Source: Alphaproteobacteria bacterium
GTDB taxonomy: Bacteria > Pseudomonadota > Alphaproteobacteria > Sphingomonadales > Sphingomonadaceae
DNA: 39,149 nucleotides
Direction: 5' to 3'
Assembly: GCA_019239415.1 (NCBI GenBank)
Contig: JAFAZW010000076.1
Coordinates: forward strand, 1-39,149
How positions within the stretch are numbered: position 1 is the first letter of the stretch; each line of letters begins with the position of its first letter. The notes below the pieces were generated by a model that did no database searches, was not told where the DNA came from, and worked only from the letters and a program-made list of their open reading frames with translations. The position numbers and the translations under genes were made by a program. Positions 15,514 to 39,025 of the stretch are shown here, piece by piece.

Positions 15514-15522
15514 TTTAACGGA

Positions 15523-15550
15523 TTGATATTCGGGCTGTTAGGCGTATCGT
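15523..15550 (+). promoter_or_regulatory. Candidate sigma-70 promoter ahead of tssB
   Basis: In the 91-bp gap between tssA and tssB, TTGATA (15523-15528, 5 of 6 consensus bases) lies 16 bases upstream of TATCGT (15545-15550, 4 of 6). A transcript from here would begin about 45 bases before tssB, whose ATG has a GGGGGG ribosome site at 15592-15597. It could give the abundant sheath and tube proteins a promoter of their own. Short promoter matches occur by chance, so this is tentative. Confidence 0.3.
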
Positions 15551-15604
15551 GATCGCCGTGCGTCCGCTCAGCAAAAGCGGTTGCTCAAAACGGGGGGATA
15601 TCTG

Positions 15605-16144
15605 ATGGCGGTCAAGAGCGGCCAGCGCTTCATCAAGGAAAACCGCGCCCCGCGGGTCCACATCGAATATGAGGTGGAGACGTACGGCTCTCGCCAGAAA
15701 GTCGAGCTGCCGTTCGTCATGGGCGTGATGTCCGATCTGTCCGGCAAGAGCCATGTCGAGAAGAAGCCGATCGACAAGCGAGAATTCGTCGATTTCGACA
15801 TGGATAATTTCGACCAACGGATGGAGGCGATCGCGCCGCGCGCGGCCTTTGCCGTCGATAATTCCCTGTCGGGAGAAGGCGGTAAGCTGTCGGTGGACCT
15901 CACCTTCAAGAGCGTCGAGGATTTTTCGCCGGGCCAGATCGCCAAGGCGATACCCTCGCTCGCCAAGCTTCTCGAGGCGAGGCAGCAACTCAATGACCTC
16001 CTTCTTTATATGGACGGGAAGGACGGCGCGCAGGACCTGCTCGACAAGGTGCTCAAGGATCCGGCCCTGCTGAAGGCGATTTCCGCGGCCAAGGCCGACG
16101 ACGATGCACCGCCGGCCGCGACGGGAGACGAAACCGCCGCCTGA
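15605..16144 (+). CDS. tssB: T6SS sheath small subunit TssB (VipA)
   Basis: TssB pairs with TssC to form the contractile sheath around the Hcp tube. The protein has 179 residues. Hallmarks are the N-terminal NRAPRVHIEYEVET, then VELPFVMGVMSDLSG, KREFVDFDMDNFD and the helical C-terminal part ending in an acidic Ala-rich tail. ATG 15605 was chosen because it follows a GGGGGG ribosome site at a spacing of seven bases; an upstream in-frame ATG at 15581 lies before that site. tssC follows after 39 bases with its own ribosome site. Confidence 0.96.
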   Translation: MAVKSGQRFIKENRAPRVHIEYEVETYGSRQKVELPFVMGVMSDLSGKSHVEKKPIDKREFVDFDMDNFDQRMEAIAPRAAFAVDNSLSGEGGKLSVDLTFKSVEDFSPGQIAKAIPSLAKLLEARQQLNDLLLYMDGKDGAQDLLDKVLKDPALLKAISAAKADDDAPPAATGDETAA

Positions 16145-16183
16145 ACCACGGCTGTGAGGGCGCTGACATCGGAAGAGGGGACA

Positions 16184-17671: not shown

Positions 17672-17716
17672 GATCCTGACCCGAAATTGACGCTATGACG
17701 TGGAAGGAGAGATCCA

Positions 17717-18202
17717 ATGGCTGTCGACATGTTTCTCGAGATCAAGGAATGTCCGGGCGAATCGACGAAGAAGGGACATGAAGGCCAGATCGACATCACG
17801 TCGTTCAGCTTCGGCGCGGTCCAGTCGGGCTCGTTCGCGCGCGGCGGCGCCGGCGGCGGTGCCGGCAAGGCCGAGTTCCAGGACATCAGTGTCGTCAAGG
17901 AAGTCGACAAGTCGTCGCCGAAACTGTTCCAGGCCTGCGCGGCGGGCACCCATTTTGGGAAGGCCACGATCTACGTCCGCAAGGCCGGCGACAAACCGCT
18001 CGAATATTACAAGGTCGAGCTCAGCGACCTGATCGTGTCGAGCGTCCAGAACAGCGGCTCGGCAGGCGGCGACGCCGTGATGGAGTCGATTACCTTCAAC
18101 ACGGCGAAGATCAATTTCACCTATGTCGAGCAGGACGCCAAGGGCGGCGCCGGCAAGACGGTGACGGCCGGTTACGACGTCCGCGCCGGCGAAAAGGTCT
18201 GA
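17717..18202 (+). CDS. hcp: T6SS tube protein Hcp (TssD)
   Basis: Hcp stacks as hexameric rings to form the expelled inner tube and can carry small effectors in its lumen. The protein has 161 residues: MAVDMFLEIKECPGES at the start, GQIDITSFSFGAVQSG, a Gly-rich loop, FQDISVVKEVDKSSPKLF, GKATIYVRKAG and YYKVELSDLIVSS. There is no C-terminal fusion domain. A strong AAGGAGA ribosome site (17704-17710) stands seven bases before the ATG, in keeping with high expression. It is the usual export marker of an active T6SS. Confidence 0.97.
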   Translation: MAVDMFLEIKECPGESTKKGHEGQIDITSFSFGAVQSGSFARGGAGGGAGKAEFQDISVVKEVDKSSPKLFQACAAGTHFGKATIYVRKAGDKPLEYYKVELSDLIVSSVQNSGSAGGDAVMESITFNTAKINFTYVEQDAKGGAGKTVTAGYDVRAGEKV

Positions 18203-18226
18203 CGGCGTCGACCCGGGACGACGCTC

Positions 18227-19012
18227 GTGCAGACCGCCGACCAATGTCTGCGCGATGGCGACGTCGAGGGCGCTCGGGCGGCTTTGACCGAGAGCATACG
18301 CTCCCGCCCGGCCGATCCTGAAGCGAGGATGTTCTTCTTCCAGTTGCTCTGCCTGACGGGCGAGTGGGAGAAGGCGCGAAAGCAGCTCGAGACGCTGGCT
18401 CGCCTCTCTCCCGAGGCGCGCATGCTGAGCGTCGTCTATGGGCAGGCGATTGCGGCCGAAGCCGTCCGCGCGGCGGTGTTCGCCGGCGACGCGGATGTCT
18501 CGATCCTCGCCGGCGGCGCCTGGGCGCAGCGGCTCGTTGCCGCCCTGCGCCGGCGCGGGCAGGGCAACGTTGCCGGCGCCCGGACCGCGCGCGACGAGGC
18601 GCTCGATGCGGCGCCCGACACCCCGGGTGAAGCCGACGGAAGCCGCTTCGACTGGATCGCCGACGCGGACAGCCGTTTCGGCCCGACCTTCGAAGCGGTG
18701 ATCGGCGGCCGCTACGGGCTGGTCGCCTTCGATGCGGTGTCGCGGATCGATGCGGAAGGCCCCCGCGACCTGCGAGACCTCGTCTGGTCGCCGGTCCAGA
18801 TCGCTTTCCGGCAGGGCCATTCCGCGGCGGCGCTGCTGCCGACGCGATACCCCGGCAGCGAGCGCTCGTCCGACCCCGCGGAGCGCCTCGCGCGCAGCAC
18901 CGGGTGGTCGGAACGAGGCGGTGAAGAGCTGGGATCGGGGCAGCATCTCTGGGTCTTGTCGAACGGGGAGGAGAGGGGCCTCCTCGCCGTCCGTTCGCTC
19001 GCCTTCGACTGA
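18227..19012 (+). CDS. tagJ: T6SS accessory protein TagJ (ImpE/SciE family)
   Basis: TagJ (ImpE) is a cytoplasmic accessory protein that, in Pseudomonas, binds the N-terminus of TssB and modulates sheath handling by ClpV. The protein has 261 residues. The N-terminal part (1-100) is TPR-like (CLRDGDVEGARAALTESI, EARMFFFQLLCLTGEWEKA). The C-terminal part is the ImpE domain (FDWIADADSRFGPTFEAVI, GGRYGLV, LRDLVWSPVQI, ALLPTRYPGSE). I chose the GTG at 18227 because it starts directly at the first helix and sits 24 bases after hcp. tssE begins six bases after the stop. Its presence beside tssE is typical of ClpV-containing clusters of the threonine-phosphorylation type. Confidence 0.9.
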   Translation: MQTADQCLRDGDVEGARAALTESIRSRPADPEARMFFFQLLCLTGEWEKARKQLETLARLSPEARMLSVVYGQAIAAEAVRAAVFAGDADVSILAGGAWAQRLVAALRRRGQGNVAGARTARDEALDAAPDTPGEADGSRFDWIADADSRFGPTFEAVIGGRYGLVAFDAVSRIDAEGPRDLRDLVWSPVQIAFRQGHSAAALLPTRYPGSERSSDPAERLARSTGWSERGGEELGSGQHLWVLSNGEERGLLAVRSLAFD

Positions 19013-19018
19013 GCTCCC

Positions 19019-19552
19019 GTGTCGCTCCGGCCGCGCCTCACCCCGACGATCTTCGACAAGCTGGTTGCGGACCTCGAGATATCGGGCCTCCGCCGTGACG
19101 AGGAGGAGACGCCGAAAGGCGGCGGCGAGGCGATGCGCTTCTACTCGGTGCCGCGGATGGAACGGTTCGGGGAGAGGGCGCTCAGGGAGACGATCCGGCG
19201 CGATCTCGCCTGGCTTCTCAACACGACGAACCTGGCGGCGGTCGTGGATCTGTCCCCTTGCCCGCAGGTGCGCTCCTCGGTGCTCAATTACGGCGTGCCG
19301 GATCTTGCGGGCAAGTCGCTGCATCGACGCACCATCCTGCACCGGGCGCGGGAGGTCCGCGACGCCATCCGGATGTTCGAGCCGCGCATCGAACCCGACA
19401 GCCTCGTCGTCGAGCCGGGCGGCGGCAGCCAGGGCGGGAACTCGGTCACCTTCCTCATCCACGGCGATATCTCCTCCGCGGTCAAGGTCATGCCGGTGCG
19501 GTTCCGCACCGAGCTCGAGGCCGACACCGGGGCGGTGGACGTGTCGGAGTAG
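19019..19552 (+). CDS. tssE: T6SS baseplate protein TssE (gp25-like)
   Basis: TssE is the gp25-like baseplate wedge component that starts sheath polymerisation. The protein has 177 residues. The N-terminus (LRPRLTPTIFDKLVADLE) and the block TIRRDLAWLLNTTN match the family, and the C-terminal beta part includes VRDAIRMFEPRIEPDSLVV. The length is at the long end for TssE because of an insertion with a Lys/Gly-rich stretch near residues 27-40. The GTG start at 19019 lies six bases after the tagJ stop; no better ATG precedes the conserved N-terminus. tssF begins four bases after the stop. Confidence 0.92.
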   Translation: MSLRPRLTPTIFDKLVADLEISGLRRDEEETPKGGGEAMRFYSVPRMERFGERALRETIRRDLAWLLNTTNLAAVVDLSPCPQVRSSVLNYGVPDLAGKSLHRRTILHRAREVRDAIRMFEPRIEPDSLVVEPGGGSQGGNSVTFLIHGDISSAVKVMPVRFRTELEADTGAVDVSE

Positions 19553-27022: not shown

Positions 27023-27292
27023 CTAACCGTCCCGTCCCGCGTCGTCGCGTTCGCTCAAGTCCATGAACGTGCGCGCGGCGTCGCGGTCGGCTTCGGAGGC
27101 GAAGGCGATGTCGAGGTCCGGCGCGGCGCCGCACATGTGGAGCAGGGCCCACAGCGCGAAGCGGCGGCCGCGGTCCCGCTCGAGGCCGAGGTCGACGCGC
27201 ATCCGTTCGATGCCGGCGGCGAGCGCCTCCGGGGCGGCCGCTGCCAGGTCGGCGGTGCCGAAATAGCGGCGCATCTGGTCATCGAGGTCCAT
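27023..27292 (-). CDS. Small conserved-looking protein downstream of the CcmI-like gene
   Basis: An 89-residue protein, MDLDDQMRRYFGTADL at the start, with no cysteine pairs suggesting metal binding and no membrane segment. The central part FALWALLHMCGAAPDLDIAF is mildly hydrophobic, and the end is Asp/Arg-rich. I do not recognise the family. Its ATG lies two bases after the TGA of the TPR gene, so the two are almost certainly co-transcribed and translationally coupled. That ties it to the cytochrome module rather than to the T6SS. A role in cytochrome maturation or regulation is only a guess from position. Confidence 0.55.
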   Translation of the reverse strand: MDLDDQMRRYFGTADLAAAAPEALAAGIERMRVDLGLERDRGRRFALWALLHMCGAAPDLDIAFASEADRDAARTFMDLSERDDAGRDG

Positions 27293-27294
27293 GC

Positions 27295-28143
27295 TCAGAG
27301 CCCGAGCTGCGCCGCGGCGGCCTTGAGCCGGGCCTGGGTCGCGGCGTCCTTCCCGAAAGCCTTGAGGCCGTCGCCGAGCGCCTGGCGGGCTCCAGCCGGG
27401 TCGTTCAGCACGGCGCGCGAGCGCATCAGCCGTATCCAGCCGTCGGCGTCGTCGGGGTTGGCGGCGAGGCGGGCGGCGAGGCGGTCGACCATCGCCCGCG
27501 CCATCTTGTCCTGCTCGCCCGGCGGGATGGCGCCGGCCGCGGCGAGCTGCTCGGGCGTCGGTCCGGGGATGGCGGCGGTAGCCGGCGCGGCGGTAGCCGG
27601 CGCGGCGGCCGCCGGCGGGGGAAGGGCGGGGGCCGCCAGGCCGTTGCGCTTCGCGGTCTCGCCGATCGTGCGCCGCAGGTCCGCCTCCCACGGCGCGCCG
27701 GGCGGCGTGTCCTTGAGCAGCGCGCTCCAGGCGGCGATCGCGCCCTTATGGTCGCCGGCGAGATCCTTCTGCACGGCGAGGAAGTAACGCGCGCGGGCGT
27801 CCGAGGGGTCGAGCGCGATCGCCCTGGCGAGGGCCTGCGCGGCTTCGGGCACCACGGTTCGGCTGCCGGTCTGCAGCGCCTCGCCGAGCGACGACCAGTT
27901 CTCGGCATTGCCGGGCTCGATCCGCGTCGCCTTGCGATAGGCCTCGGCCGAGGCCGCGGCGTCGCCTTTCTCGGCATAGGCCCAGCCGACCGTCCGCCAG
28001 TCCTTCGCGAGCGGGTCGGCGGCCGCCTCGCCGCGGCGGCCCAGCGCCGCATAGCCGATCGACCCCGCGGCGGCGAGCGCCGCGACGGCGAGGAGCAGGG
28101 TCGCCGGCGAGGGCGCGCGGCGGGTCTCGACAGGGGCGGCCAT
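27295..28143 (-). CDS. CcmI/CycH-like TPR protein, probable cytochrome c maturation factor
   Basis: A 282-residue protein with an N-terminal transmembrane helix (about 11-34) and a TPR-containing periplasmic part. One TPR region lies at about 50-130 (WAYAEKGDAAASAEAYRKA, then RIEPGNAENWSSLGEALQ). After a Pro/Ala linker (about 165-200), the C-terminal part shows DRLAARLAANPDDADGWIRL, the pattern seen in the CcmI/CycH C-terminal domain that handles apocytochrome c. It lacks the two-helix N-terminal arrangement of classical CcmI. The divergent neighbours encode proteins with 20 CxxCH motifs, so a dedicated chaperone for haem attachment is plausible. I chose ATG 28143 because the frame upstream lacks TPR-like sequence and overlaps the divergent gene's leader. 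Confidence 0.72.
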   Translation of the reverse strand: MAAPVETRRAPSPATLLLAVAALAAAGSIGYAALGRRGEAAADPLAKDWRTVGWAYAEKGDAAASAEAYRKATRIEPGNAENWSSLGEALQTGSRTVVPEAAQALARAIALDPSDARARYFLAVQKDLAGDHKGAIAAWSALLKDTPPGAPWEADLRRTIGETAKRNGLAAPALPPPAAAAPATAAPATAAIPGPTPEQLAAAGAIPPGEQDKMARAMVDRLAARLAANPDDADGWIRLMRSRAVLNDPAGARQALGDGLKAFGKDAATQARLKAAAAQLGL

Positions 28144-28151
28144 GGCTTGCG

Positions 28152-28179
28152 ATTGTCGCGGCAAAATGGTCAACGTCAA
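28152..28179 (-). promoter_or_regulatory. Candidate promoter for the CcmI-like gene (possible leaderless start)
   Basis: In the 58-bp gap between divergent genes, the minus strand has TTGACG (28174-28179, 5 of 6 consensus bases) 16 bases upstream of GACAAT (28152-28157, 4 of 6). Transcription would then begin within a few bases of ATG 28143, giving a leaderless or near-leaderless mRNA. No ribosome site precedes that ATG, which would agree. The match is weak and the call tentative. Confidence 0.25.
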
Positions 28180-28201
28180 GCCAGACGCGGGGAGCGGAAC
28201 C

Positions 28202-30628
28202 ATGCCGGAGCGGCTGCGCATTGCGATCGTCGGCTCCGGTCCCGCCGGCCTTAGCGCCGCGGCCCGGGCGGCGGCGCTCGGCCTCAGCCATGTCCTCCTC
28301 GAAAAGGCCGACCACCTCTCCGATACGATCTACAAATATCAGAAGGGCAAGCACGTGATGGCGACGCCGGCGCAGCTGGTGCTGCGCTCGGACATGCCGT
28401 TCGAGGCCGGCAAGCGCGAGGCCGTGCTCGGCGCCTGGGACGCGCGCGCCGGCGCGATCGCTGTCCGCCTCAACGCCGAGGTGCGGGCGATCGAGGGTGC
28501 CCGGGGCGCCTTCATGCTGCGGCTCGCCGACGGCGACACGATCGAGGCGGAGAGTGTCGTCCTCGCCATCGGCACGCAGGGCAATCCCAACCGGATGCGG
28601 TGCGAAGGCGCCGATCTCCCGCACGTCCAATATCAGCTCGATGATCCCGGGGAATATGTCGACGAGCATATCGTCGTGGTCGGCTCGGGCGACGCCGGCA
28701 TCGAGAATGCCCTCGGCCTCGCCGCCGACCCGGCCCAGGGCAATGTCGTCGTCCTCCTCAACCGCGGCGTCGATTTCGCCCGCGCCAAGGCCGCCAACGT
28801 CAAGCTGTTGATGGAGGCGCGGGACGCCGGTCGCATCCAGGTGATGACCGAGACCTCGCCGGCGAAGGTCGAGCCCGGCTGGCTGACCCTCGACACGCGC
28901 GACGGCCAGCAGCGCCTCCGCTGCGACCGCATCATCGCCCGGATGGGCTCGGCGGCCCCGCGCGCCTTCGTCGAAGCGTGCGGGATCGCTTTCACCAGCC
29001 CCGACCGCGAGGCCTTCCCGCAGCTCAGCCCCAGCTTTGAGACGAGCGTGCCGGGCCTCTACGCGATCGGCGCGCTGGCCGGCTATCCGCTCATCAAGCA
29101 TTGCATGAACCAGGGCTATGACGTCGTCGAATATATCGCCGGCAACCGCGCGCTGCGGCCGGCGGACGAGCCCATCCTGGCGGCCAAGCTCGAGGGCTTG
29201 CCGGGCCGCCGCTCGGTCGACCAATGGCTCGAATTCCTCCGCGCCAACGTCGCCATCTTCGAAGGCCTCTCGCCGCTCCAGATGCGCGAGTTCATGCTCG
29301 ACAGCCAGGTCCGGGCCTGGCCCGCCGGCGCGACCGTGTGCGAGCGCAACGCGCCCGGCGATTCGCTCTTCGCCATCGCCTCGGGCGCGGTGGCGGTGGA
29401 GGTCGGCGCGGGGCGGACGGTGCCGATCGGCACTGGCTCGATCTTCGGCGAGGTCGGCCTCATCTCCGGCCGCCGCCGCGGCGCCACGGTGCGCGCCGCC
29501 GAGGAGTCGATCCTGGTCGAAATCCCGCGCACCGCGGCCTTGAAGCTGATGGCGACGGTGCCGGCGGCGAAGCGGGCGATCGAGCGCATTTCGATCGAGC
29601 GCCAGCTGCTCCAGGTGTTCGGCGCCGGCCTCGCGGCGGACGATCTTGCCGAGGTGCTGGAGAGCGCCGAGGTGAAGACCGTCCGTGCCGGCGAGGCGAT
29701 CCTCACCGAAGGCGAGGAGGGGCGCGACATCTTCGTCGTCCGCCGCGGTTCGATGGTGGTCGAGAAGGCGATCGGCGGCCGCCCGGTCTTCCTCTCCTAC
29801 CTCCCGGCCGGCTCCTATGTCGGCGAGATGGCCTTGATCGACGGCGGCCCCCGCACCGCCACCGTCCGCGCCGCGATCAAGTCGGAGGTGATCCGCCTCG
29901 ACGGCGACGCCTTCGCCCGCCTGCTCGTCCGCCAGCCGGACCTGCTCGGCAAGGCGAAGCGCGACATGGCGGCGCGGCGCGAGGTCAACGCCTTCGTCGA
30001 AGCGAAGAAGGCGGGCTTCGCCGGCGCCGTCGACCTCTATTCGTCGGTCGCTTCCTTCCTCGTCGAGAACGGCATCGGCGAGGCGACCGACGTCCTCCTG
30101 ATCGACGAGAAGCTCTGCGTCGGCTGCGACAATTGCGAACGCGCCTGCGCCGACAGCCACGAGGGACTGTCGCGGCTCGACCGGGAGGCGGGCAAGACCT
30201 ACGCCCACCTCCACGTCCCCACCTCGTGCCGCCATTGCGAGCACCCGCATTGCATGGCCGACTGCCCGCCCGACGCCATCCACCGCGGGCCGGACGGCGA
30301 GGTCTTCATCGACGACAGTTGCATCGGCTGCGGCAATTGCCTGCGCAACTGCCCCTATGGCGTCATCCGCATGGAGAAGGTGCCGCCGAAGAAGCCGCCG
30401 CTCCTCGCCTGGCTGCTCGCCGGCCTCGGCCCCGGGCCGGGCGAGCCGCCGCGCCGCTGGACCGACAGGCGCGTCTCCCCCGATACGCCGAAGCGGGCCG
30501 TGAAATGCGACATGTGCGCCGGCATCGACGGCGGGCCGGCCTGCGTGCGCGCCTGCCCCACCGGCGCCGCCATCCGCGTCGCCCCCGAGCAGATGCTGAC
30601 GGTGGCAAGGCTCGGGGGGAAGGGATGA
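28202..30628 (+). CDS. Fusion of flavoprotein oxidoreductase, two cyclic-nucleotide-binding domains and four-cluster ferredoxin
   Basis: An 808-residue cytoplasmic redox protein with three parts. Residues 1-330 are a two-dinucleotide-fold oxidoreductase: FAD motif GSGPAG (11-16), NAD(P) motif GSGDAG (near 161), and a closing LYAIGALAGYPL. The thioredoxin-reductase CxxC pair is absent. Residues about 356-445 and 482-578 are two cNMP-binding domains with intact phosphate-binding cassettes (FGEVGLISGRRRGATV and VGEMALIDGGPRTATV). Residues about 638-790 hold 16 cysteines in four groups (CVGCDNCERAC, CRHCEHPHCMADC, CIGCGNCLRNC, CDMCAG with CVRAC), the DmsB/NrfC-like pattern of four [4Fe-4S] clusters. 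No Tat or Sec signal is seen. I chose ATG 28202 because it has a GGGGAGCGG site and sits just before the FAD motif. It heads the operon and probably feeds electrons from NAD(P)H to the cytochromes, under cyclic-nucleotide control. Confidence 0.88.
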   Translation: MPERLRIAIVGSGPAGLSAAARAAALGLSHVLLEKADHLSDTIYKYQKGKHVMATPAQLVLRSDMPFEAGKREAVLGAWDARAGAIAVRLNAEVRAIEGARGAFMLRLADGDTIEAESVVLAIGTQGNPNRMRCEGADLPHVQYQLDDPGEYVDEHIVVVGSGDAGIENALGLAADPAQGNVVVLLNRGVDFARAKAANVKLLMEARDAGRIQVMTETSPAKVEPGWLTLDTRDGQQRLRCDRIIARMGSAAPRAFVEACGIAFTSPDREAFPQLSPSFETSVPGLYAIGALAGYPLIKHCMNQGYDVVEYIAGNRALRPADEPILAAKLEGLPGRRSVDQWLEFLRANVAIFEGLSPLQMREFMLDSQVRAWPAGATVCERNAPGDSLFAIASGAVAVEVGAGRTVPIGTGSIFGEVGLISGRRRGATVRAAEESILVEIPRTAALKLMATVPAAKRAIERISIERQLLQVFGAGLAADDLAEVLESAEVKTVRAGEAILTEGEEGRDIFVVRRGSMVVEKAIGGRPVFLSYLPAGSYVGEMALIDGGPRTATVRAAIKSEVIRLDGDAFARLLVRQPDLLGKAKRDMAARREVNAFVEAKKAGFAGAVDLYSSVASFLVENGIGEATDVLLIDEKLCVGCDNCERACADSHEGLSRLDREAGKTYAHLHVPTSCRHCEHPHCMADCPPDAIHRGPDGEVFIDDSCIGCGNCLRNCPYGVIRMEKVPPKKPPLLAWLLAGLGPGPGEPPRRWTDRRVSPDTPKRAVKCDMCAGIDGGPACVRACPTGAAIRVAPEQMLTVARLGGKG

Positions 30629-30639
30629 GGGGAAAGATC

Positions 30640-30722
30640 GTCATCCCGGCGCAAGCCGGGATCTCCCCGCGAAAAGGCGCCGCGGCTAACCTGAGGGAGG
30701 TCCCGGCTTTCGCCGGGACGAC
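30640..30722. repeat. REP-like dispersed palindromic element, copy A
   Basis: An 83-bp element made of two hairpins. The left arm GTCATCCCGGCG-AAGCCGGGAT and the right arm TCCCGGCTTTCGCCGGGACGAC are each palindromic and also roughly complementary to one another. The spacer contains CGAAAAGGCGCC. A second copy with a related spacer lies at 38243-38321. Copy A fills the gap between the flavoprotein fusion and the cytochrome b-like gene, whose ATG comes six bases after it. It may stabilise or attenuate the transcript there. Confidence 0.85.
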
Positions 30723-30728
30723 GGGGTA

Positions 30729-31574
30729 ATGGCCACCCGGCAGATCCCCCGCACCACGCTCGGCGAGGGCGCCAGCCATGAGGGCTTCCTGCGCCACAAG
30801 CGCTTTCGCTGGGCGAAGCTCGCCTTGCTGCTCTGCGCTGCGGCCGTCGCCGGCTATGCCCTGATCGACGCGCCGCCGCGCCATTATGGCGGCACCGCCT
30901 TCGGCTATGTCCTCGGCACCGTCGCGACCCTGCTCATCCTCTGGCTGACCCTGCTCGGCCTGCGCAAGCGCGCGATGACGCCGGGCCGCTGGTCGCTCAA
31001 GGGCTGGACGAGCGCCCATGTCTGGCTCGGCCTGTCGCTCACCGTCCTTGCCACGCTCCACAGCGGCCTCCGCTTCGGCCCCGACGTCCACACCCTCGCT
31101 TGGGGGCTGATGATGGCGGTGATCCTCTCCGGCCTCTACGGAATCGCCGTCTATGCCGCACTGCCGCCGGCGCTCGGCGACAGCCGCGCCGAGATGACGC
31201 GGCCGCAGATGGTCGACGCGCTCGCCAAGCTCGACGTCCAGCTCGAGGCCGCCGCCCAGCCGCTCGCGCTCGCCGACGCGGCCGTCGTGCGCAAGGCGCT
31301 CGCCGAGGATCCGTTCGCGGCCGGGCTGCTGCGCCGGCTCTCCGGCTCGGACGCCCGTTCCGCCACCCGCCGCGCCATCGTGGCGCTGGCGCCGGCCGGC
31401 GATGCCGCTCTCCTCGCGGTCCTGGAGCGCAAGGTCGCCGCGCTCGGGCAGATCCGGCGCCACCTGCGCATCCGCGCGCTCCTCGAAGTATGGCTCTACG
31501 TCCACGTGCCGCTGACCTTCGCGCTCCTCGCCGCGCTCGCCGCCCACATCCTCAGCGTCTTCTTCTACTGGTAG
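30729..31574 (+). CDS. Di-haem cytochrome b-like membrane protein
   Basis: A 281-residue inner-membrane protein with about five helices (29-48, 55-78, 94-113, 120-145, 250-281). Helix 3 carries His97 and His111, helix 5 His259 and His273. Both pairs are 14 residues apart, the same spacing as the haem ligands in the two ligand helices of cytochrome b of the bc1 complex, so two stacked b-haems across the membrane are predicted. A soluble loop of about 105 residues lies between helices 4 and 5. I do not recognise a named family. It sits between the Fe-S flavoprotein and the decahaem cytochrome genes, as expected for the transmembrane electron carrier. No strong ribosome site is present; GGGG at the edge of the upstream repeat may serve. 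Confidence 0.82.
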   Translation: MATRQIPRTTLGEGASHEGFLRHKRFRWAKLALLLCAAAVAGYALIDAPPRHYGGTAFGYVLGTVATLLILWLTLLGLRKRAMTPGRWSLKGWTSAHVWLGLSLTVLATLHSGLRFGPDVHTLAWGLMMAVILSGLYGIAVYAALPPALGDSRAEMTRPQMVDALAKLDVQLEAAAQPLALADAAVVRKALAEDPFAAGLLRRLSGSDARSATRRAIVALAPAGDAALLAVLERKVAALGQIRRHLRIRALLEVWLYVHVPLTFALLAALAAHILSVFFYW

Positions 31575-31581
31575 GGCGGCG

Positions 31582-33369
31582 ATGGCGTTCGTCCTGCGCA
31601 CCGTCACGACCAGCGCCGAGGGGCGCGAGATCGTCCGTACGCGGCGGGTCGAGGGCGACCGGCTGACGATCGGCCGCGGCCCGGCGTGCGACATCCACCT
31701 GACCGACCTCGCCGTCGCGCTGCGCCACGCCGAGGTCGCGCGAAGCGGCGAGCGGCTGGCGGTGACCGTCGAGAACGGCCTCACCGTCGCCCTCGACGGC
31801 CGCCAGGTCGGCGCCGGCAGCCTCGCCCTCGCGACCGGCGGCGACCTGCGCATCGGCAGCCACCTGCTCCGCTTCCTGCCCGTCGCCGCCGGATCCGACG
31901 AGGTGGCCGTCGGCGTCGAGCGCGTCACCGAGGGCGAGGCGAAGCTCGACCGCGACGCCGAGCGGCTCTTCTCGCTCGCTTCCGTCCTCCCCGGCAAGCG
32001 TCCGCTGGCCTGGCTGCTGGCGCTGCTCGTGATCGGCCTCTGCATCGCCTGGCCGGTGAAGACCTTCTACGACCGCCAGCAGCGGGCCGAACGCTTCGCC
32101 CGCTTCCAGGCCGACGAGCTCTGGTCGGCGGGCCATCTGAGCGCGGCCCATGCGAGCCTGCGGCACGACTGCAACGCCTGCCACGTCAAGCCGTTCGAGT
32201 CGGTCCGCGACGCCGCCTGCGCCTCCTGCCATCGCGACATCCACGGCCATGCCGACCCGTTCCGCCTCGCCCGCGCCCAGCCCGATCTCAGCGCCTGGGG
32301 CCGGTTCCAGCTCCGTCTCAAGCAGGCGTTCGACCTACCGCCCGGGCGCTGCATCGATTGCCACACCGAGCATCAGGGGCCGCAGCAGATGGCGCCGACG
32401 CCGCAGCGCTTCTGCGCCGACTGCCACGGCGATCTCGCGGCCAGGCTCCCCGACACCAGGCTCGGCAATGCGGGCGACTTCGCCCGGATCCATCCCGATT
32501 TCCGCCCGGCGGTGGTCACCGGCTGGCAGGGCGAGCGGCCGATCCTCACCCGCGTGTCGGGCCCGGCCGCGCGCGAGGCGAACGGCCTCAAATTTCCGCA
32601 CGCGCTCCACCTCTCGCGCAGCGGCGGCGCCGCGCAGATGGCGCGGCGCCTCGGCATCGGCGCGAGCCTCGACTGCGCCGACTGCCACCGGCCCGAGCCG
32701 AACGGCGCGCGCTACCAGCCGGTGGTGATGGAGCGCGACTGCGCCCAATGCCACAGCCTCGCCTTCGCCCGCACCGGCGGCGTCGTCCGCACCCTGCGCC
32801 ACGGGGATCCCGCGCAGGTGATCGCCGAGGTTGGCGACTATTACCGCTTCCGCACCGCGCCGCGGCCGCCGAGCCTCGCCCCGGCCGGCCGGCGCCAGCC
32901 GGGCGCGGCGCCGGCGGTCGCGACCCGCATCCGCTTCGACGCCGGCGCCCGGGCGCCTGGGCCCGAGGCGGCGGTCCGCGCCGTCTTCTCGCCCGGCGGC
33001 GCCTGCTACGATTGCCACCAGGTGGACGCGCCGCCCGCCGGCTCGCTGGCCTACCGCATCCATCCCGTCGCCTTCCCGGAACGCTACATCCGCCACGGCT
33101 GGTTCGATCATCGCCCGCACGCGGCCCAGAGCTGCGGCAGCTGCCACCAGGCAGCGCGCTCGAACGCGGCCTCCGACCTGCTGATTCCGGGCATCGCCAC
33201 CTGCCGGGGCTGCCACGGCGGCGAGCGGACCGCGAAACCGGTCGCGTCGCCCTGCGCGATGTGCCATTCGTACCACGCACGGCCGGGGGCGCCGGCGATG
33301 GTCGTTCGGCAGCGGCTCCGGGGGGAGCAGCGGCCGGTCCCCGCGGCCGCCGTGCGGGAGGGGGGCTGA
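31582..33369 (+). CDS. FHA-domain, membrane-anchored decahaem cytochrome c
   Basis: A 595-residue protein with an unusual order of domains. Residues 24-98 are FHA-like (LTIGRGPACDIHL), residues 141-160 form one transmembrane helix, and the rest is a c-type cytochrome with ten CxxCH motifs starting at Cys 197, 213, 257, 278, 365, 387, 475, 518, 541 and 558. The haem part must be periplasmic, because haem is attached there, which places the FHA part in the cytoplasm. In the FHA part the usual Ser of SxxH is Ala (ALRH) and the second Asn is Asp, so phosphothreonine binding may be lost. It starts seven bases after the cytochrome b-like gene (AGGGCGG site) and shares one base with the next start (TGATG). 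It probably accepts electrons from the membrane b-haems. Confidence 0.9.
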   Translation: MAFVLRTVTTSAEGREIVRTRRVEGDRLTIGRGPACDIHLTDLAVALRHAEVARSGERLAVTVENGLTVALDGRQVGAGSLALATGGDLRIGSHLLRFLPVAAGSDEVAVGVERVTEGEAKLDRDAERLFSLASVLPGKRPLAWLLALLVIGLCIAWPVKTFYDRQQRAERFARFQADELWSAGHLSAAHASLRHDCNACHVKPFESVRDAACASCHRDIHGHADPFRLARAQPDLSAWGRFQLRLKQAFDLPPGRCIDCHTEHQGPQQMAPTPQRFCADCHGDLAARLPDTRLGNAGDFARIHPDFRPAVVTGWQGERPILTRVSGPAAREANGLKFPHALHLSRSGGAAQMARRLGIGASLDCADCHRPEPNGARYQPVVMERDCAQCHSLAFARTGGVVRTLRHGDPAQVIAEVGDYYRFRTAPRPPSLAPAGRRQPGAAPAVATRIRFDAGARAPGPEAAVRAVFSPGGACYDCHQVDAPPAGSLAYRIHPVAFPERYIRHGWFDHRPHAAQSCGSCHQAARSNAASDLLIPGIATCRGCHGGERTAKPVASPCAMCHSYHARPGAPAMVVRQRLRGEQRPVPAAAVREGG

Positions 33370-34220
33370 TGCTGATCGCGCAGGTCACCGACATCCATCT
33401 CGGCTTCGAGGGCGACCGGCCCGACGAGCTCAACCGCCGCCGGCTCGACGCCGTCCTCGCCTGGCTCGCGGCGATGCGACCGCGCCCGGACCTGCTGCTG
33501 ATGACGGGCGACCTCGCCGATGCGGGCGACGACGACCTTTCCTACCGGCGCCTCAAGGAGGCGACCGCCGATCTGCCCTTCCCGGCTTACCCGATGGTCG
33601 GCAATCACGACGGCCGCGCCGCCTTCGGCGCCCATTTCCCGGCCTCCGTCCAGGACGGCTTCGTCCAGTACGAGATCGACGCCGGGCCGCTGCGCATCCT
33701 CGTCCTCGACACGCTGGAGGAAGGCCGCCACGGCGGCGCCTTCTGCGAGCGGCGCGCCGCGTGGCTGGAGGCCCGGCTCGCCGAGCAGGACGAGCGGCCG
33801 ACCCTGATCGCCCTCCACCATCCGCCGATCGATCCCGGGCTCGCCTGGATGGGCGAGAATCCCGACGCCGCGTGGGTCCGCCGGCTCGAGGCGCTGCTGT
33901 CGCCGGCACGCAACGTCGTCGGCCTCGTCGCCGGCCACCTCCACCGCCCGCTCGTCACGCGGTTCGCCGGCACGATCGTCGCGGCCTGCGCCGCAACCGC
34001 GCCCGAGCTCGCCCTCGACCTCGCCGGCATCGACGCGGAGCGCCCCGACGACCGCCCGATGATCGTCGAGGAGCCGCCCGCCTTCGCCCTCCATCGCTGG
34101 ACCGGCCGCGCCCTCGTCACCCATTTCGGCCTCGCCGCCGCAGCGCCCGTCCTGTCGCGCTTCACGCCCCCCTGGCAGCCCCTCCTGCGCCAGCTGGCGG
34201 GAGAACGGGGCCAAGCCTAA
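33369..34220 (+). CDS. CpdA-like metallophosphoesterase, probable cyclic-nucleotide phosphodiesterase
   Basis: A 283-residue calcineurin-like phosphoesterase close in length and motif order to the class III cAMP phosphodiesterase CpdA. The metal ligands are present: D8 and H10 (VTDIHLG), D48 (MTGDLADAGD), N79 and H80 (VGNHDG), then ALHHPP and AGHLHRP (GHxH). There is no signal peptide or membrane helix, so it is cytoplasmic. The start overlaps the cytochrome stop by one base, which makes it the coupled last gene of the operon whose first gene has two cyclic-nucleotide-binding domains. Removing the signal sensed by that protein is the obvious inference. CpdA homologues may also act on other phosphodiesters, so the substrate is not certain. 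Confidence 0.83.
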   Translation: MLIAQVTDIHLGFEGDRPDELNRRRLDAVLAWLAAMRPRPDLLLMTGDLADAGDDDLSYRRLKEATADLPFPAYPMVGNHDGRAAFGAHFPASVQDGFVQYEIDAGPLRILVLDTLEEGRHGGAFCERRAAWLEARLAEQDERPTLIALHHPPIDPGLAWMGENPDAAWVRRLEALLSPARNVVGLVAGHLHRPLVTRFAGTIVAACAATAPELALDLAGIDAERPDDRPMIVEEPPAFALHRWTGRALVTHFGLAAAAPVLSRFTPPWQPLLRQLAGERGQA

Positions 34221-34351
34221 TCCTCCCCGAGCTCGCTCGGGGAGGGGGACCGCACGAAGTGCGGTGGAGGGGCATGCTGAGGCGGAGGGAAGCCCCTCCA
34301 CCACGTCGCTTCGTGCCGCGGTCCCCCTCCCCGAGACAAGCTCGGGGAGGA
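34221..34351. repeat. Long imperfect inverted repeat between convergent genes, possible bidirectional terminator
   Basis: Left arm 34221-34273 and right arm 34292-34351 are imperfectly complementary, and each arm contains its own hairpins (CTCCCCGAG-CTCGGGGAG and CCGCAC-GTGCGG types). The whole would fold into a long branched stem. It begins one base after the phosphoesterase stop and ends two bases before the cytochrome stop, so it occupies the full gap between convergent genes. There is no T-run; any terminator function would rest on the stem alone. Elements of this sort (CTCCCCGAGC...GCTCGGGGAGG) are dispersed in many Sphingomonas-like genomes, from memory. Confidence 0.8.
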
Positions 34352-34353
34352 GC

Positions 34354-37300
34354 TTAACGTACCCAGTCCGCCATGCTGCCCGTATCGCTCACCCGGAACG
34401 GATCGCCGGCGCCGTTCAGGAACAGCCGCTCCATCTCGGCGCGGGTGAAGGGCCGCGAGCCGAGGCGGCCGAAGACGGCGATCTGGCCGCCCGTCTCGTC
34501 GACCGCGCGGTCGCGGTCGAGGCCCTTGGCGAGGCCGAGCGCGGGGTGCGGCGTCCGCGCCCAGGCGATCAGCTCGGGCACCGGCGCCGGCGAGAAGCCG
34601 TAGAAATTGGGCTGGCTCTCCGGGCTGGTGAGCTGGATCACCTTCATCCCCGCGCGCCCGTCGGCGACATAGGCGAAGAGCGATGCATTGGTCGACGCGA
34701 CGACGACGTCCTCGACGTCGGTCATCCGCCCGCCGAACGTCTCCTTGCGGTAGACGGCCGGCCGCTCCGGATTGGCGACGTCGACGATCGCCAGCCCCTC
34801 GCCCTTCGCGGCGACATAGGCATAGGTGCGGGCGACGTAGAGCTTGCGCGCGTCGCGGAGCTTTACGGTCGCGGCCGGCACCGCCACCGGCCGGTCGAGC
34901 CGCGTCACGTCGAACAGCTTGAGCCCGTCCGCGTCCGTCACCCACAAATAGCGGAACTGCACTGCCGACGCGCGTCCGTCGCGTAACGGGAGGCTCGCCG
35001 CCAGCCGCGGCTTCAGCGGATCGTCGAGGTCGACGACGACGAGGGCGCCGGGCGTCGTCACATAGGCGATGTGCCCGGCGAGCGTGACGTGCCGCGCCCC
35101 GGAGAGCGCCCCGCCCGGGTTCCACGTCACCGCCCGCTTGAGGAAATTGTTCTGCGCATTGCCGTCGGCGAACGTGTCGACATCGACGAGGATCAGCCCC
35201 TCCTCGGCGTCGGTCACCACCGCATAATGGTAGAGCGGGTGGAAGGCCTGCTCCTGGTTCGCGGCGCGCATCTCGGCCGTGTTGCGCGTCGGCGCGATCG
35301 GCTGGTTGGTGGGGAGCGCCATGCAGGTCGCGTTGCGGCTCGGCACGTGCGCGTCGTGGCCGAGCGGGGAGAAGGGGGCGGTGAGGATCTTCTCCGACAC
35401 GCCCTTGTTGGCGATCGACGCCACGTCGTAGACCCGAAAGCCGCCGCGCCCCTCGGCGACGTACAGATATTCGCCGCGATTCTGGAGGCAGCGCACCTCG
35501 CCGCCGGCGCCCTTGGCGACGTTCTCGAACACCTCCGGCGCCCCCTTGCCGCGCCGCGTCCAGTTGACGAGCTCGCGCTTGTTCCTGTCGAGGTGGAGCC
35601 GGTACCAGTCGGGATAGGCGAAGCGCTGCAGGTAGGAGCCGATCACCGCCTGCGGCTCGTCCCACTCCGTCACCCGCGTCGCCTGCACGCCGCCGTCGAG
35701 CCCGACCCAGGCGTTCAGCCCGACGAAATTGACGAAATTGGTCCCCTGGAGCAGCAGCTGCGCCATCACGGCATTGTTGTCGTTCGCCTGGCTCAAATGG
35801 CAGTCGCTGCACGTCTTGGTCTCCGCCGTCCGCACCGTGTGCGGGAAATGCGGCGCGAAGGCCTGGGACGAAAAGCCCGACGCGCTGAGCGGCGGCTGCT
35901 GCACGTAGATCCGCTCGCGGTTGATGTTGGTCGACGACAGCACCAGCGCCGAGCTCGACCGGACCGGCGCGACGATGTTCCCCTTGGTCGTCATGTGCCG
36001 GCCCAATTGGAACATGTCGTCGCGCGCGACCTGCGGGTTGTAGGTCGCGAAGTTGCGCGTCTCGCCGCCCTCGAAGCGGTGGATGCCGCTCTTCCAGTTC
36101 GCCTCGATCGGCAGGTGGCAGCCGCCGCACGACGTCGTCCAGCTGAGGTGGCAGGTATAGCAGGCCATCTCGCTCGGCTTGTGTGCCAGCTTCGCCTCCG
36201 GCACGCCGCTGCCGAAGACGTACCGCCCCGTCTCCGCCCCCTCGGTCGACATCAATTTCGCCCGCGCGGCCTTGAGGTTGAAGCGCGGGTTCGCGGGATC
36301 CACGCTGTCCTTCACCAGCGACACGCGCCAATAAAGGTCCGGGTCGACGATCGAGCGCTGCACCAGCACGCGCCGCCCGCCATCCTCCTCCATCCACTCG
36401 AACCGCCTTTGCCCGTCCGGGTTGCGCAGCAGCGCGAGGTTGGTGCCTTTCGGCGGCGCCGCCGGCCCGGACGTCAGCAGGTTCGGATAGTCCCTCGCCG
36501 TGCCGTGGCAGTCCTTGCAGGCGATCTCGATCGCGTTCGCCACCTCCCCGTAAATGAACCCGTTGCCGTGGCTGTCCTGCGCGAAGTGGCAGTCGGCGCA
36601 CTGCATGCCCTTCTCGGCATGGATGTCCATCAGGTGGACCGCCTTGCCCGGATTGACGCCCGGCGGCGTGAACGGCCCTTCGCCCTTGCGCCGGAACTTC
36701 TCTGGGTCGTCCGGCGCCACCGTCTTGCCCTCGGCGTCGAGCAGATTGCCCGCCCGGTCGCGCTTGTAGACGGCGCGGAAGTTCCAGCCGTGGCCGTGAT
36801 AGTCGGCGAACTGGGTGTGCTTCGCCTTCGGGTTCACCTCGTCGTGGACGTTGCGCAGGAAATCGACGTCCCCCCACAGCCCCCGCGCCGCCGCGGCCTC
36901 CGGGTTCCGCTCGTTGACCGCCCGCGTTTCGGCGTCGGAGGGATAATGCTGCTGGCGATAGGCCGCTTCCTTGCCCTTGGGCGCCGCCATGCGGTTCTCC
37001 GGCCCCGGCCACATCAGGTCGGCGTCGGCCTCGTAATCCCACATCGTGTAGCCGAGGTAGGAGTTCAGGAAGACGTTGGGCTGGTGCATGTGGCAGCTCA
37101 TGCACTGCGAGGTCGGGATCGCCCGGGTGAAGGCGTGGCCGAGCGGGTGGCCGCTCTCCTTCCTGCCCGCGATCGTCGGGTCCGCGCTCGCCGTCTGCCC
37201 GTCGCGGCCATAGGGGGCGTAGGTGAGGCTGTGCCGCGGCTCGCGGTCGTTGGCATAGACGACGTGGCAGCCCGCGCAGCCCGAATGGCGATAGTCGCCC

Positions 37301-38340
37301 GGCTGGTCGTTGGTGCCGATGAACCACAGGAACGGGTCATTGAGGCGCGTCTTGTGGATGTTGAGGATCGGGATCGCGACGCGCAGCCCCGTGCCCGGCC
37401 CGCGGTTCGACTGGCGGATGTCCGGCCGCCCGCTCTCCTCGAGCCGCTGCAGCGCGCCGGACGGGGAGGGGAGGCCGATCTCCGGAAAGGCCGACCCGAT
37501 CGTCCGCCCGCCCTGCTCGAACACCCGGAAGATGTCGCCCGGCGGCACCACCTGCCAGGTCGGCAGCGGGTACATCTCGGCGAGCGCGCCGCGCGCCCGC
37601 TCCGCCGCGCTCAGCTTTCCGTCGCCGGACGGAAAGGGCGACACCAGCTTCGCCGGCTTCCCGTCCCGCGTGTAGGCCTCGCCGAACCGGTAATTCTTGA
37701 ACGGCAGGATCCCGTTATTGTAGGCCGCCCCGCCCCACAGCATCGCCCCCGTCGCCATCAGCGACCGTTCCCCCGCCTCGATCGTCGCGGCGTGGCACGC
37801 CCCGCAACTCTCCCGCGCCACGCGGTAATCGGACGGATTGACGAACCGGATATATTCCGCGCTCTCCGCATTGAGCAGCGCATAGCTCCGCTTGGGATTG
37901 GCCGACGAGGGCCACCCCCAGGCCTGCGGATAGAGCGGCAACACATGGGCCGCATCGCGCGCCGCGACATATTTCGGATCGCCGTGGGGCAGCGAAGCGT
38001 CCCCCCGAATAGCGGGATTGCCCCCATGACAATCGACGCACCCCAGCACCACCGCCTGGCTCGCATGCATGGTGCGATATTCGCCGTCGGAGTGGCACGA
38101 CTGGCACCCCGCGGACTTCCTGTCGGCGACCCCCCAATCCTGCGTCTGCGGCGCCGGCGCGGCGCGCACGAGCGCATAGTCCCGCGCGACTGACTTCTCC
38201 CCCTCGGAAGCGACCAACGGGGACGCGAACAGCCCCACCACCGTCATCCCGGCGAAAGCCGGGATCCCCCAACGAAAAAGGCGCCCCCTCAACCGGAGAT
38301 CCCGGCTTCCGCCGGGATGACGGAACAACATCTCGCGCAT
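34354..38340 (-). CDS. Large exported decahaem cytochrome c with C-terminal LVIVD-type beta-propeller
   Basis: A 1328-residue protein. A long Arg-rich N-terminus leads to a hydrophobic stretch and a likely signal cleavage after SPLVA (residue 44). Ten CxxCH motifs lie between residues 79 and about 846: CQSCH, CVDCH, CGACH, CAGCH, CMSCH, CADCH, CKDCH, CYTCH, CGGCH and CSDCH. The C-terminal third (about 940-1290) repeats a motif such as YAYVAAKGEGLAIVDVANPERP, the LVIVD-type propeller unit. It should be periplasmic or surface-exposed and could be the terminal electron donor/acceptor or reductase of the module. Residues 7-33 are encoded by a REP-like repeat. The start is uncertain: ATG 38340 and 38331 keep the signal peptide, ATG 38247 would give only an 18-residue one without positive charge. 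The function of the propeller is unknown. Confidence 0.87.
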   Translation of the reverse strand: MREMLFRHPGGSRDLRLRGRLFRWGIPAFAGMTVVGLFASPLVASEGEKSVARDYALVRAAPAPQTQDWGVADRKSAGCQSCHSDGEYRTMHASQAVVLGCVDCHGGNPAIRGDASLPHGDPKYVAARDAAHVLPLYPQAWGWPSSANPKRSYALLNAESAEYIRFVNPSDYRVARESCGACHAATIEAGERSLMATGAMLWGGAAYNNGILPFKNYRFGEAYTRDGKPAKLVSPFPSGDGKLSAAERARGALAEMYPLPTWQVVPPGDIFRVFEQGGRTIGSAFPEIGLPSPSGALQRLEESGRPDIRQSNRGPGTGLRVAIPILNIHKTRLNDPFLWFIGTNDQPGDYRHSGCAGCHVVYANDREPRHSLTYAPYGRDGQTASADPTIAGRKESGHPLGHAFTRAIPTSQCMSCHMHQPNVFLNSYLGYTMWDYEADADLMWPGPENRMAAPKGKEAAYRQQHYPSDAETRAVNERNPEAAAARGLWGDVDFLRNVHDEVNPKAKHTQFADYHGHGWNFRAVYKRDRAGNLLDAEGKTVAPDDPEKFRRKGEGPFTPPGVNPGKAVHLMDIHAEKGMQCADCHFAQDSHGNGFIYGEVANAIEIACKDCHGTARDYPNLLTSGPAAPPKGTNLALLRNPDGQRRFEWMEEDGGRRVLVQRSIVDPDLYWRVSLVKDSVDPANPRFNLKAARAKLMSTEGAETGRYVFGSGVPEAKLAHKPSEMACYTCHLSWTTSCGGCHLPIEANWKSGIHRFEGGETRNFATYNPQVARDDMFQLGRHMTTKGNIVAPVRSSSALVLSSTNINRERIYVQQPPLSASGFSSQAFAPHFPHTVRTAETKTCSDCHLSQANDNNAVMAQLLLQGTNFVNFVGLNAWVGLDGGVQATRVTEWDEPQAVIGSYLQRFAYPDWYRLHLDRNKRELVNWTRRGKGAPEVFENVAKGAGGEVRCLQNRGEYLYVAEGRGGFRVYDVASIANKGVSEKILTAPFSPLGHDAHVPSRNATCMALPTNQPIAPTRNTAEMRAANQEQAFHPLYHYAVVTDAEEGLILVDVDTFADGNAQNNFLKRAVTWNPGGALSGARHVTLAGHIAYVTTPGALVVVDLDDPLKPRLAASLPLRDGRASAVQFRYLWVTDADGLKLFDVTRLDRPVAVPAATVKLRDARKLYVARTYAYVAAKGEGLAIVDVANPERPAVYRKETFGGRMTDVEDVVVASTNASLFAYVADGRAGMKVIQLTSPESQPNFYGFSPAPVPELIAWARTPHPALGLAKGLDRDRAVDETGGQIAVFGRLGSRPFTRAEMERLFLNGAGDPFRVSDTGSMADWVR
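38243..38321. repeat. REP-like dispersed palindromic element, copy B, inside the cytochrome signal-peptide region
   Basis: A 79-bp element with the same two-hairpin structure and related spacer (CGAAAAAGGCGCC) as copy A at 30640-30722. Arms are GTCATCCCGGCGAAAGCCGGGATC and GATCCCGGCTTCCGCCGGGATGAC-like sequences. On the minus strand it is in frame with the decahaem cytochrome and encodes residues 7-33, including the typical repeat-derived peptides RHPGGSRDL and IPAFAGMT. Confidence 0.85.
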
Positions 38341-38440: not shown

Positions 38441-39025
38441 TTACAGCGACCGTCTTGAAGCCGTTGCCGCTGACGTGTCAGCGATCGCCTGCCCGTAAAG
38501 TTCGGCCGTAGCTTCAGTCACAGCCGCTCGCGCAGTAGCCTCGTCGCAGGCGAACCACTCGCCCGTGAGCTTGTCGGTGGAGAGCCGACTATGCGCGGCC
38601 TTCTCGACCTCGCGCGCCTTGAAGTTAGGGCACTTATATTCCGCTACGATACGGAGCCCCCCTGCGGCGCCGGTGGCAAGGTTTCGCCGGCGGACGGCAA
38701 CGTCGCGCGCCTTGCCTACCTTATGGCGCCCCTCGGCGTTGGCGAAGATGTAGACGGACTCGAGACCCGCCTCCGCAATGATACGCTTCATCTCGGCGTC
38801 GCTAATCGAGCGGCGCGGAACCCACCGAAACAGGTTGGAACGGCCGACGGCGCCGAGCTTGTAAAGCTCCAGAAGCACTTGCTTTGCAGGATCGACATAA
38901 TCCTCGGGCGCGCCGCCGGTGCGCGCCATCGTGCTCGCCACGAAATAAACCGCCTGCTGTAGCGTCGCGGCGTCGAGGGAGAGGCGGTCGGTCGGAATGG
39001 GAATCTTGTCGTCGTCGGTGAACAT
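38441..39025 (-). CDS. GIY-YIG / T5orf172-type domain protein
   Basis: A 194-residue protein. The C-terminal half resembles the T5orf172/MUG113 branch of the GIY-YIG nuclease superfamily: VYIFANAEGRHKVGKARD aligns with the family's Y-I-x-KIGxS/T-type block, followed by a basic stretch (VAVRRRNLATG) and then EVEKAAHSRLSTDKLTGEWFACD with the conserved Glu, His and GEWF. The N-terminal 90 residues are not recognised. Such domains occur in phage, mobile-element and housekeeping contexts, so activity and role are open. The ATG at 39025 has a GAAAGGCAGGG ribosome site. It is not evidently linked to the cytochrome module; it is separated from it by about 100 bases and codes on the same strand. Confidence 0.72.
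   Translation of the reverse strand: MFTDDDKIPIPTDRLSLDAATLQQAVYFVASTMARTGGAPEDYVDPAKQVLLELYKLGAVGRSNLFRWVPRRSISDAEMKRIIAEAGLESVYIFANAEGRHKVGKARDVAVRRRNLATGAAGGLRIVAEYKCPNFKAREVEKAAHSRLSTDKLTGEWFACDEATARAAVTEATAELYGQAIADTSAATASRRSL

Follow-up and report, generated by a model that had tools for sequence, protein, structure and literature searches.

Contig JAFAZW010000076.1 of an alphaproteobacterial genome (GCA_019239415.1; Sphingomonadales, Sphingomonadaceae) is analysed here as one window of 39,149 nucleotides, which is the entire contig, and position numbers refer to that whole stretch. Among the six genes across 27295-38340 are those with the sites for a series of redox cofactors that would lead from reduced nicotinamide adenine dinucleotide or its phosphate (NAD(P)H) to the outer membrane. 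P0006 lies on the minus strand, P0001 to P0004 follow on the plus strand, and P0005 is again on the minus strand, convergent to the other genes, so that it adjoins the set in the window and stands outside their operon. The features are listed below.

27295..28143, minus strand: P0006, a transmembrane-anchored TPR protein of the CcmH/CycH (NrfG) kind (PF23914 and neighbourhood)
28202..30628, plus strand: P0001, a YpdA-like flavoprotein with two cyclic-nucleotide-binding domains and four [4Fe-4S] ferredoxin sets (domain searches, alignments)
29318..29575 (approximate limits), plus strand: first cyclic-nucleotide-binding domain of P0001, with the Glu419/Arg428 phosphate cassette (cNMP_binding stretch, invariance)
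29675..29929, plus strand: second cyclic-nucleotide-binding domain of P0001, with Glu544/Arg553 (PF00027, best stretch 494-578; invariance)
30116..30556, plus strand: 16 cysteines for four predicted [4Fe-4S] clusters in P0001 (count, alignments)
30729..31574, plus strand: P0002, a predicted membrane cytochrome b, with His97/His111 and His259/His273 for two stacked haems (alignments, hydropathy)
31582..33369, plus strand: P0003, with a predicted cytoplasmic FHA/YscD-like domain, one transmembrane helix and a predicted periplasmic decahaem domain (domains, CxxCH count)
33369..34220, plus strand: P0004, a metallophosphoesterase of the SpdA/CpdA cyclic-nucleotide phosphodiesterase kind (PF00149)
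34354..38340, minus strand: P0005, a predicted exported decahaem cytochrome with C-terminal LVIVD repeats (CxxCH count, PF08309, alignment)
34756..34857, minus strand: best stretch of the LVIVD repeat of P0005 (PF08309, 52.5 bits, cutoff 20.2)

A preliminary description of this DNA had noticed the flavin/NAD motifs and 16 ferredoxin cysteines of P0001, the di-histidine pair on each of two helices of P0002, ten CxxCH motifs in each of the cytochromes P0003 and P0005, and a CcmI-like TPR protein, and each of these was recovered by the searches and alignments given below. It had also taken the genes as one adjacent set reaching from 27023 to 38340. The adjacency stands within the window, with the qualification that P0005 belongs to a second module, and the start at 27023 takes in an 89-codon frame that is left out here. 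The two cyclic-nucleotide-binding domains, the FHA/YscD-type domain, the phosphodiesterase P0004, the LVIVD repeats and the partner genes on other contigs were all absent from that description.

The inner-membrane genes

Many of the counts that follow refer to the named loci, the best 80 of 481 confirmed relatives, which were brought in by P0001 and therefore form a sample biased to close kin; counts over 57 loci leave out the 23 of the 80 with cut flanks. The named loci bear names of Sphingomonadales genera or groups, apart from one 'uncultured bacterium'.

In Pfam, P0001 comprises a Pyr_redox domain at residues 8-307 (numbering counted from base 28196), two cNMP_binding stretches and 4Fe-4S domains. 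The flavin domain is nearest to the YpdA/Bdr family (TIGR04018, 117.7 bits, under the cutoff of 339.9), and 7a7b is its match in the PDB. The Glu/Arg phosphate cassette is a hallmark of cyclic-nucleotide-binding domains, and in P0001 these domains score 116.3 bits in Pfam against a cutoff of 27.5 and match, in tandem, the chains of PKA and PKG in a PDB sequence search. The Glu/Arg pairs at both sites are invariant in an alignment of 13 rows from the order, the window's included, and in a wider one of 7 rows, which are the window's and six from other families. Equally invariant in both alignments are all 16 cysteines, which fall into the sets 641/644/647/651, 678/681/686/690, 709/712/715/719 and 771/774/783/787.

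Hydropathy places the two histidine pairs of P0002 on two helices, and the four haem histidines, together with His121, are invariant in 14/14 rows. A PDB sequence search with P0002 found no relative, its single match being at E 0.35. In two genomes of one genus (G179 and G295) P0001 and P0002 are fused into one protein of about 1120 residues, which directly supports a flavoprotein feeding the cytochrome b. A further fusion in G598, suggested by an open frame of 1154 residues, was rejected, the translation having a stop between the two.

P0003 passes the cutoffs for an FHA fold (PF00498, 22.7 against 20.7; PF16697, 34.7 against 33.2), and its topology is predicted to be an FHA/YscD-like part in the cytoplasm, a transmembrane helix at about residues 138-163, and a decahaem part in the periplasm. 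When compared with the phosphothreonine-binding motif of FHA domains, Gly31-Arg32 is kept and a serine three positions before His49 occurs in 0/14 rows (alignment read by eye). The ten CxxCH motifs of P0003 compare with a mean of 0.038 and a maximum of 1 in composition-preserving shuffles (2000 for each of the two decahaem proteins). They are invariant in 14 rows, and ten are present in P0003 of all 57 fully flanked named relatives. The sixth site of L155 and L156 reads CX4CH, and the nine CxxCH motifs there therefore still amount to ten haem sites. Invariant histidines in the 14 rows number 21, of which 10 belong to CxxCH motifs, 10 are others in the periplasmic part and one is His49 in the FHA domain; in the wider alignment nine of the extra periplasmic histidines are kept in 7/7 rows and His513 in 6/7. 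With one extra invariant histidine per haem, bis-histidine ligation is predicted for all ten haems of P0003. A PDB sequence search with this protein returned fragments only.

P0004 keeps the usual metal motifs, and its ATG overlaps the stop codon of P0003 by one base. Its NCBIfam scores, 126.5 of 400 for SpdA and 70.1 of 225 for CpdA, are both under the equivalog cutoffs. P0006 matches TPR_CcmH_CycH (PF23914) at 57.9 bits against a Pfam cutoff of 42, with a weak NrfG match below cutoff, and is a probable accessory for c-haem attachment. None of the 80 named loci matches an 89-codon frame (27023-27292, minus strand) that directly follows P0006, and no Pfam family scores above its cutoff there.

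P0005, the outer-membrane genes and their distribution

P0005 is predicted to be exported from its N-terminal hydrophobic stretch. Its 10 CxxCH motifs, against a shuffle mean of 0.009 and a maximum of 1, are invariant in 29 rows, and all 29 rows match ExtM of Geobacter, the window's protein at E 3.9e-22 and 77-78 bits against a cutoff of 800. P0005 is a distant relative of ExtM, its nearest named relative, and lies far below the cutoff of that family. A PDB sequence search with P0005 found no relative.

P0005 is part of a second, outer-membrane module, whose partner genes lie on other contigs in this genome. Three genes recur around P0005 in 25 opened loci, namely those of 24 other carriers in the order and of G395, a genome from another family of the class. 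The first, c3, encodes a tetrahaem c554-like cytochrome (24/25 loci); the second, c2, a lipoprotein with two HbpS-like domains (called in 24/25 loci, and found by tblastn in the 25th); and the third, c0, a β-barrel (25/25 loci) that has no Pfam or NCBIfam match at E<=0.01. In the window's genome contig C32 has c3 and c2 at its end and the short contig C64 carries c0, and since the ends of the two carry the same repeat, these contigs are probably neighbours. Between P0005 and the end of the window lies a gene for a T5orf172/MUG113 protein (38441-39025, minus strand), where relatives have the barrel gene. An adenylate/guanylate cyclase gene recurs next to the outer-membrane module (L042:2-2246 and related loci); that of L042 passes the cyclase cutoff, and a possible CHASE2 part stays below its own. 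In several loci the cyclase gene is followed by one for a small protein that looks exported and belongs to no known family.

Non-synteny in relatives had been named in the preliminary description as an outcome that would refute its electron conduit, and the genes proved syntenic. P0002 and P0003 are each found in all 57 fully flanked named loci, P0004 and P0006 in 56 each, and the five genes P0001-P0004 and P0006 together in 55. Within the stretch covered, the same loci have P0005 in 34 and the barrel in 31. Ten CxxCH motifs were counted in 28 of the 34 P0005 matches and 3 to 8 in the other 6, lower counts that are probably due to reading from the best aligned piece or to the end of the locus. 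Megaplasmid carriers are represented by 12 Sphingobium records for P0001, and by Sphingobium and one Sphingopyxis record for P0005; in the one annotated megaplasmid record examined, the genes are annotated under generic or hypothetical names.

In one sample of 147 genomes from the order, P0005, the cytochrome b and the barrel share exactly one set of 25 carriers and are found in none of the other 122, a co-occurrence whose simple probability is inflated by kinship. Among the genomes listed, six genera (g1, g3, g4, g6, g7 and g16) hold carriers and non-carriers alike, and the three marker genes move together. The two modules are <=15 kb apart in 14 of the carriers, 22 kb to 1.3 Mb apart on the same contig in 6, and on different contigs of drafts in the remaining 5.

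Among 385 genomes of the class, the barrel was found in 29 and the cytochrome b in 37, and all 29 are within the 37. Three of the 29 belong to the window's family; eight of the other 26 were opened, and in 8/8 a co-directional run P0001-P0002-P0003-c2-c0-P0005 was found. The steps from P0003 to P0005 at L178 are gaps or overlaps of about 20 bases or less. The same gene order occurs outside the class in G496. G504 has it with c3 in between and P0005 just beyond the stretch fetched, and G296 carries P0001-P0002-P0003-c2-c0 up to near the contig end, where P0005 was not found. At L153, a locus of low guanine-plus-cytosine content that was read by tblastn, the multihaem cytochrome and the barrel share an operon. 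The split arrangement of the Sphingomonadales, P0004 included, is also that of G395, which goes against a simple rule; the split may derive from the single operon, a polarity that its presence in G395 keeps conjectural.

Other features of the window lie between, within or outside these genes. Two copies of one palindromic element are present, whose arms have 4 matches in the window against 0.01 expected; the second copy seems to code part of the hydrophobic stretch of P0005.

30639..30723, no strand: palindromic repeat element between P0001 and P0002 (29-nt arms, 90% complementary)
38241..38323, no strand: palindromic repeat element in the signal-peptide region of the P0005 open reading frame (29-nt arms, 93% complementary)

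Type VI secretion genes occupy 1-25121 and include VasE, DotU with OmpA, IcmF, a VgrG-like hub and ImpA, along with a ClpV-like ATPase recognised by eye. Two long open reading frames of this region, 15515-17605 and 17693-19462 (minus strand), have no Pfam match at E<=1e-5.

Proposed electron path and its alternatives

The composition of the set, its cofactor sites, gene order, co-inheritance and one gene fusion can be read from the sequences, and they suggest the following path. P0001 would oxidise cytosolic NAD(P)H through the flavin adenine dinucleotide (FAD) of its YpdA-like domain, and its four ferredoxin-type clusters would deliver electrons singly to the haem on the cytosolic side of P0002. 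The two stacked haems b of P0002 would bring the electrons over to the periplasmic haem without a quinone. P0003, docked by its cytoplasmic FHA-fold domain and anchored by one helix, would receive them on its ten periplasmic haems. The outer-membrane module would consist of the tetrahaem c554-like carrier, the double HbpS-like lipoprotein, the β-barrel and P0005, of which P0005 would be the terminal component, a cytochrome or a reductase acting at the outer membrane. Electron flow through P0001 is probably switched by a cyclic nucleotide bound to its tandem domains, and P0004 would lower the signal. The order from NAD(P)H through FAD, Fe-S clusters and haem b to haem c had been put forward in the preliminary description, and it is supported by the gene order and by the P0001-P0002 fusion in one genus. 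The direction of flow, its gating, the acceptor and the assembly of a complex are inferences.

It is considered probable, on these sequence comparisons, that the genes make up a two-module, quinone-independent trans-envelope electron-transfer system leading from NAD(P)H to the outer membrane. As with NADPH oxidases, the membrane potential is run down when electrons move outward. Because electron export would drain both NAD(P)H and the potential, a control switch makes sense, and the tandem cyclic-nucleotide domains and co-encoded phosphodiesterase fit that need, which is the basis for proposing cyclic-nucleotide gating. The same drain makes a role in redox balance, in detoxification or in the reduction of iron or metal(loid)s more likely than one in energy-conserving respiration. 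A more specific proposal, offered tentatively and with some doubt, is a cyclic-nucleotide-gated, quinone-independent valve, widespread in Alphaproteobacteria, in which cyclic AMP or cyclic GMP acting on the dehydrogenase would open or shut the export of NAD(P)H electrons to the cell surface via the haem b pair and more than 20 c-type haems. Alphaproteobacteria such as the Sphingomonadales are usually seen as aerobes without extracellular electron transfer. The presence of the genes in many named Sphingomonadales, including cultured strains, makes the proposal directly testable.

Several observations weigh against a two-module system of this kind. P0002 passes no Pfam cutoff: Ferric_reduct scores 25.2 against a gathering score of 28, and at E<=1 weak b561 matches are found in 13/14 members against 5/14 for Ferric_reduct, all below cutoff. 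The structure prediction for P0005 (residues 45-1200) has a mean predicted local distance difference test score (pLDDT) of 41.2 and is usable for the C-terminal repeats only, and the barrel model, at a pLDDT of 53.7, is similar to AlgE and OprD-type porins, with about 18 strands as counted by the author in the list of secondary structure. P0004 was not found at the loci with the six-gene operon, and only 11 of the 57 fully flanked named loci have a cyclase-domain match in the stretch. The modules also separate, in that no barrel was found in 8 of the 37 class genomes with the inner module, and neither barrel nor P0005 was found in G147, G179 and G295, all with the inner module; G295 is 76% complete, the G147 contig ends just after P0003, and the genome searches score few candidates per genome, so that misses are possible.

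Four of the eight barrel-negative class genomes were opened, and a c3-like tetrahaem cytochrome was present nearby in 4/4 and a five-haem protein in three. A pair of tetrahaem and five-haem genes adjoins the inner module at L173:2781-6382, L175:11826-18019 and L176:2817-6215, and might be an alternative outlet. With c3-like and five-haem genes replacing c2-c0-P0005, the inner module is probably a reusable electron supply for the periplasm to which different outlets can be attached.

The weak, AlgE-like barrel model gives no clear support for an Mtr-type sheath such as the wide MtrB/PioB barrel, and if the barrel is of the modelled kind, a substrate pore for a reductase is as open as a surface conduit. 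The terminal step might be carried out, in the periplasm or at the outer membrane, by a reductase acting on a soluble anion of the tellurite or selenite kind, with the barrel as anion pore, P0005 as the enzyme and no flow to the surface. This alternative, which is regarded as rather unlikely, draws on the ExtM match of every P0005 row and on the shape of the modelled barrel; against it are the score of the ExtM match, about a tenth of the cutoff, and the weakness of the barrel model itself. It also draws on Erythromonas ursincola KR-99, whose genome carries both modules and for which a membrane-bound tellurite reductase that depends on NADH is reported without an assigned gene (PMC5488091). 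However, the enzyme has subunits of 62 and 55 kDa, with GroEL as the nearest mass-spectrometry match, and identification of the enzyme with these proteins by mass was rejected, the predicted KR-99 masses offering no clear match. The link to KR-99 is a lead, through which the set offers a concrete candidate for the unassigned enzyme.

Reductive acquisition of iron or haem, in which Fe(III) or haem iron would be reduced at the surface for uptake, is considered improbable. The HbpS-like haem-binding lipoprotein in the operon and the weak ferric-reductase match of P0002 are in keeping with it, but at least 20 haems would be a steep iron price for scavenging (an argument only), and the five recurrent neighbour families scanned contain no TonB receptor, nor does one annotated record with its 21 features, although no systematic search for one was made. 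Inward flow, with electrons from an extracellular donor reducing NAD(P)+, is very unlikely: the cofactor chain could in principle run backwards, but such reduction requires a low-potential donor near -320 mV or an energy input, and no energy-coupling subunit was seen among the operon genes. That the modules are co-inherited and yet serve separate reactions is likewise given little credence, for although they are unlinked in 6 of 25 carriers and on different contigs in 5 more, and the barrel-negative class genomes point the same way, their exact co-occurrence in the order and their single operon elsewhere speak against it.

Comparison with known systems

The two-module system, as the preferred reading, has features in common with several characterised ones. 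In the NADPH oxidase/ferric reductase superfamily, NAD(P)H electrons travel outward over two stacked haems b that are held by two helices. P0002 has this pattern of two histidine pairs on two helices, with its Ferric_reduct score under the cutoff; unlike in that superfamily, the dehydrogenase here is a Pyr_redox flavoprotein with four Fe-S sets and the predicted recipient is a decahaem cytochrome. YpdA/Bdr flavoproteins are the nearest family to the flavin domain of P0001, but in P0001 this domain is fused to cyclic-nucleotide-binding and ferredoxin domains.

The porin-cytochrome conduits (MtrCAB, PioAB and Geobacter PCC) likewise combine multihaem cytochromes with a β-barrel in one operon, and a trans-envelope flow is predicted for both. 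Entry to the conduits is by quinol, whereas in the present set it would be by NAD(P)H through to a barrel modelled as AlgE-like with about 18 strands, and an HbpS lipoprotein stands where the conduits have a surface cytochrome lipoprotein. The other best-studied lines of electron export in Gram-negative bacteria also begin at the quinone pool. For CbcL and ImcH of Geobacter, the start of electron export is placed there as well (PMC6148476).

The Ext cluster of Geobacter sulfurreducens (extHIJKLMNOPQS), as described in the part of its report consulted (PMC5877670), resembles the set in that multihaem cytochromes are encoded together with a cytochrome b, an Fe-S protein and a porin-like protein of the outer membrane. 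That part lists neither a cytosolic NAD(P)H flavoprotein nor a cyclic-nucleotide domain, unlike P0001; ExtO is a Rieske protein, and ExtM is a 12-haem protein of 68 kDa where P0005 has 10 haems and LVIVD repeats. It also reports that loss of the ExtI porin affects selenite and tellurite conversion.

The preliminary description had not recognised the genes as a characterised complex, and this still holds, since no profile or PDB search matched the full gene set to a known one. No description of the system was found in the PMC literature, a coverage that leaves out most subscription journals and bioRxiv preprints. The set is not an established member of the Ext family, the Mtr family or the ferric reductases. 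If the proposed path is correct, its start at NAD(P)H, the crossing of the membrane on its own haems and its second-messenger receptors would amount to a different design from the quinone-fed lines, one in which redox output is controlled at the protein level.

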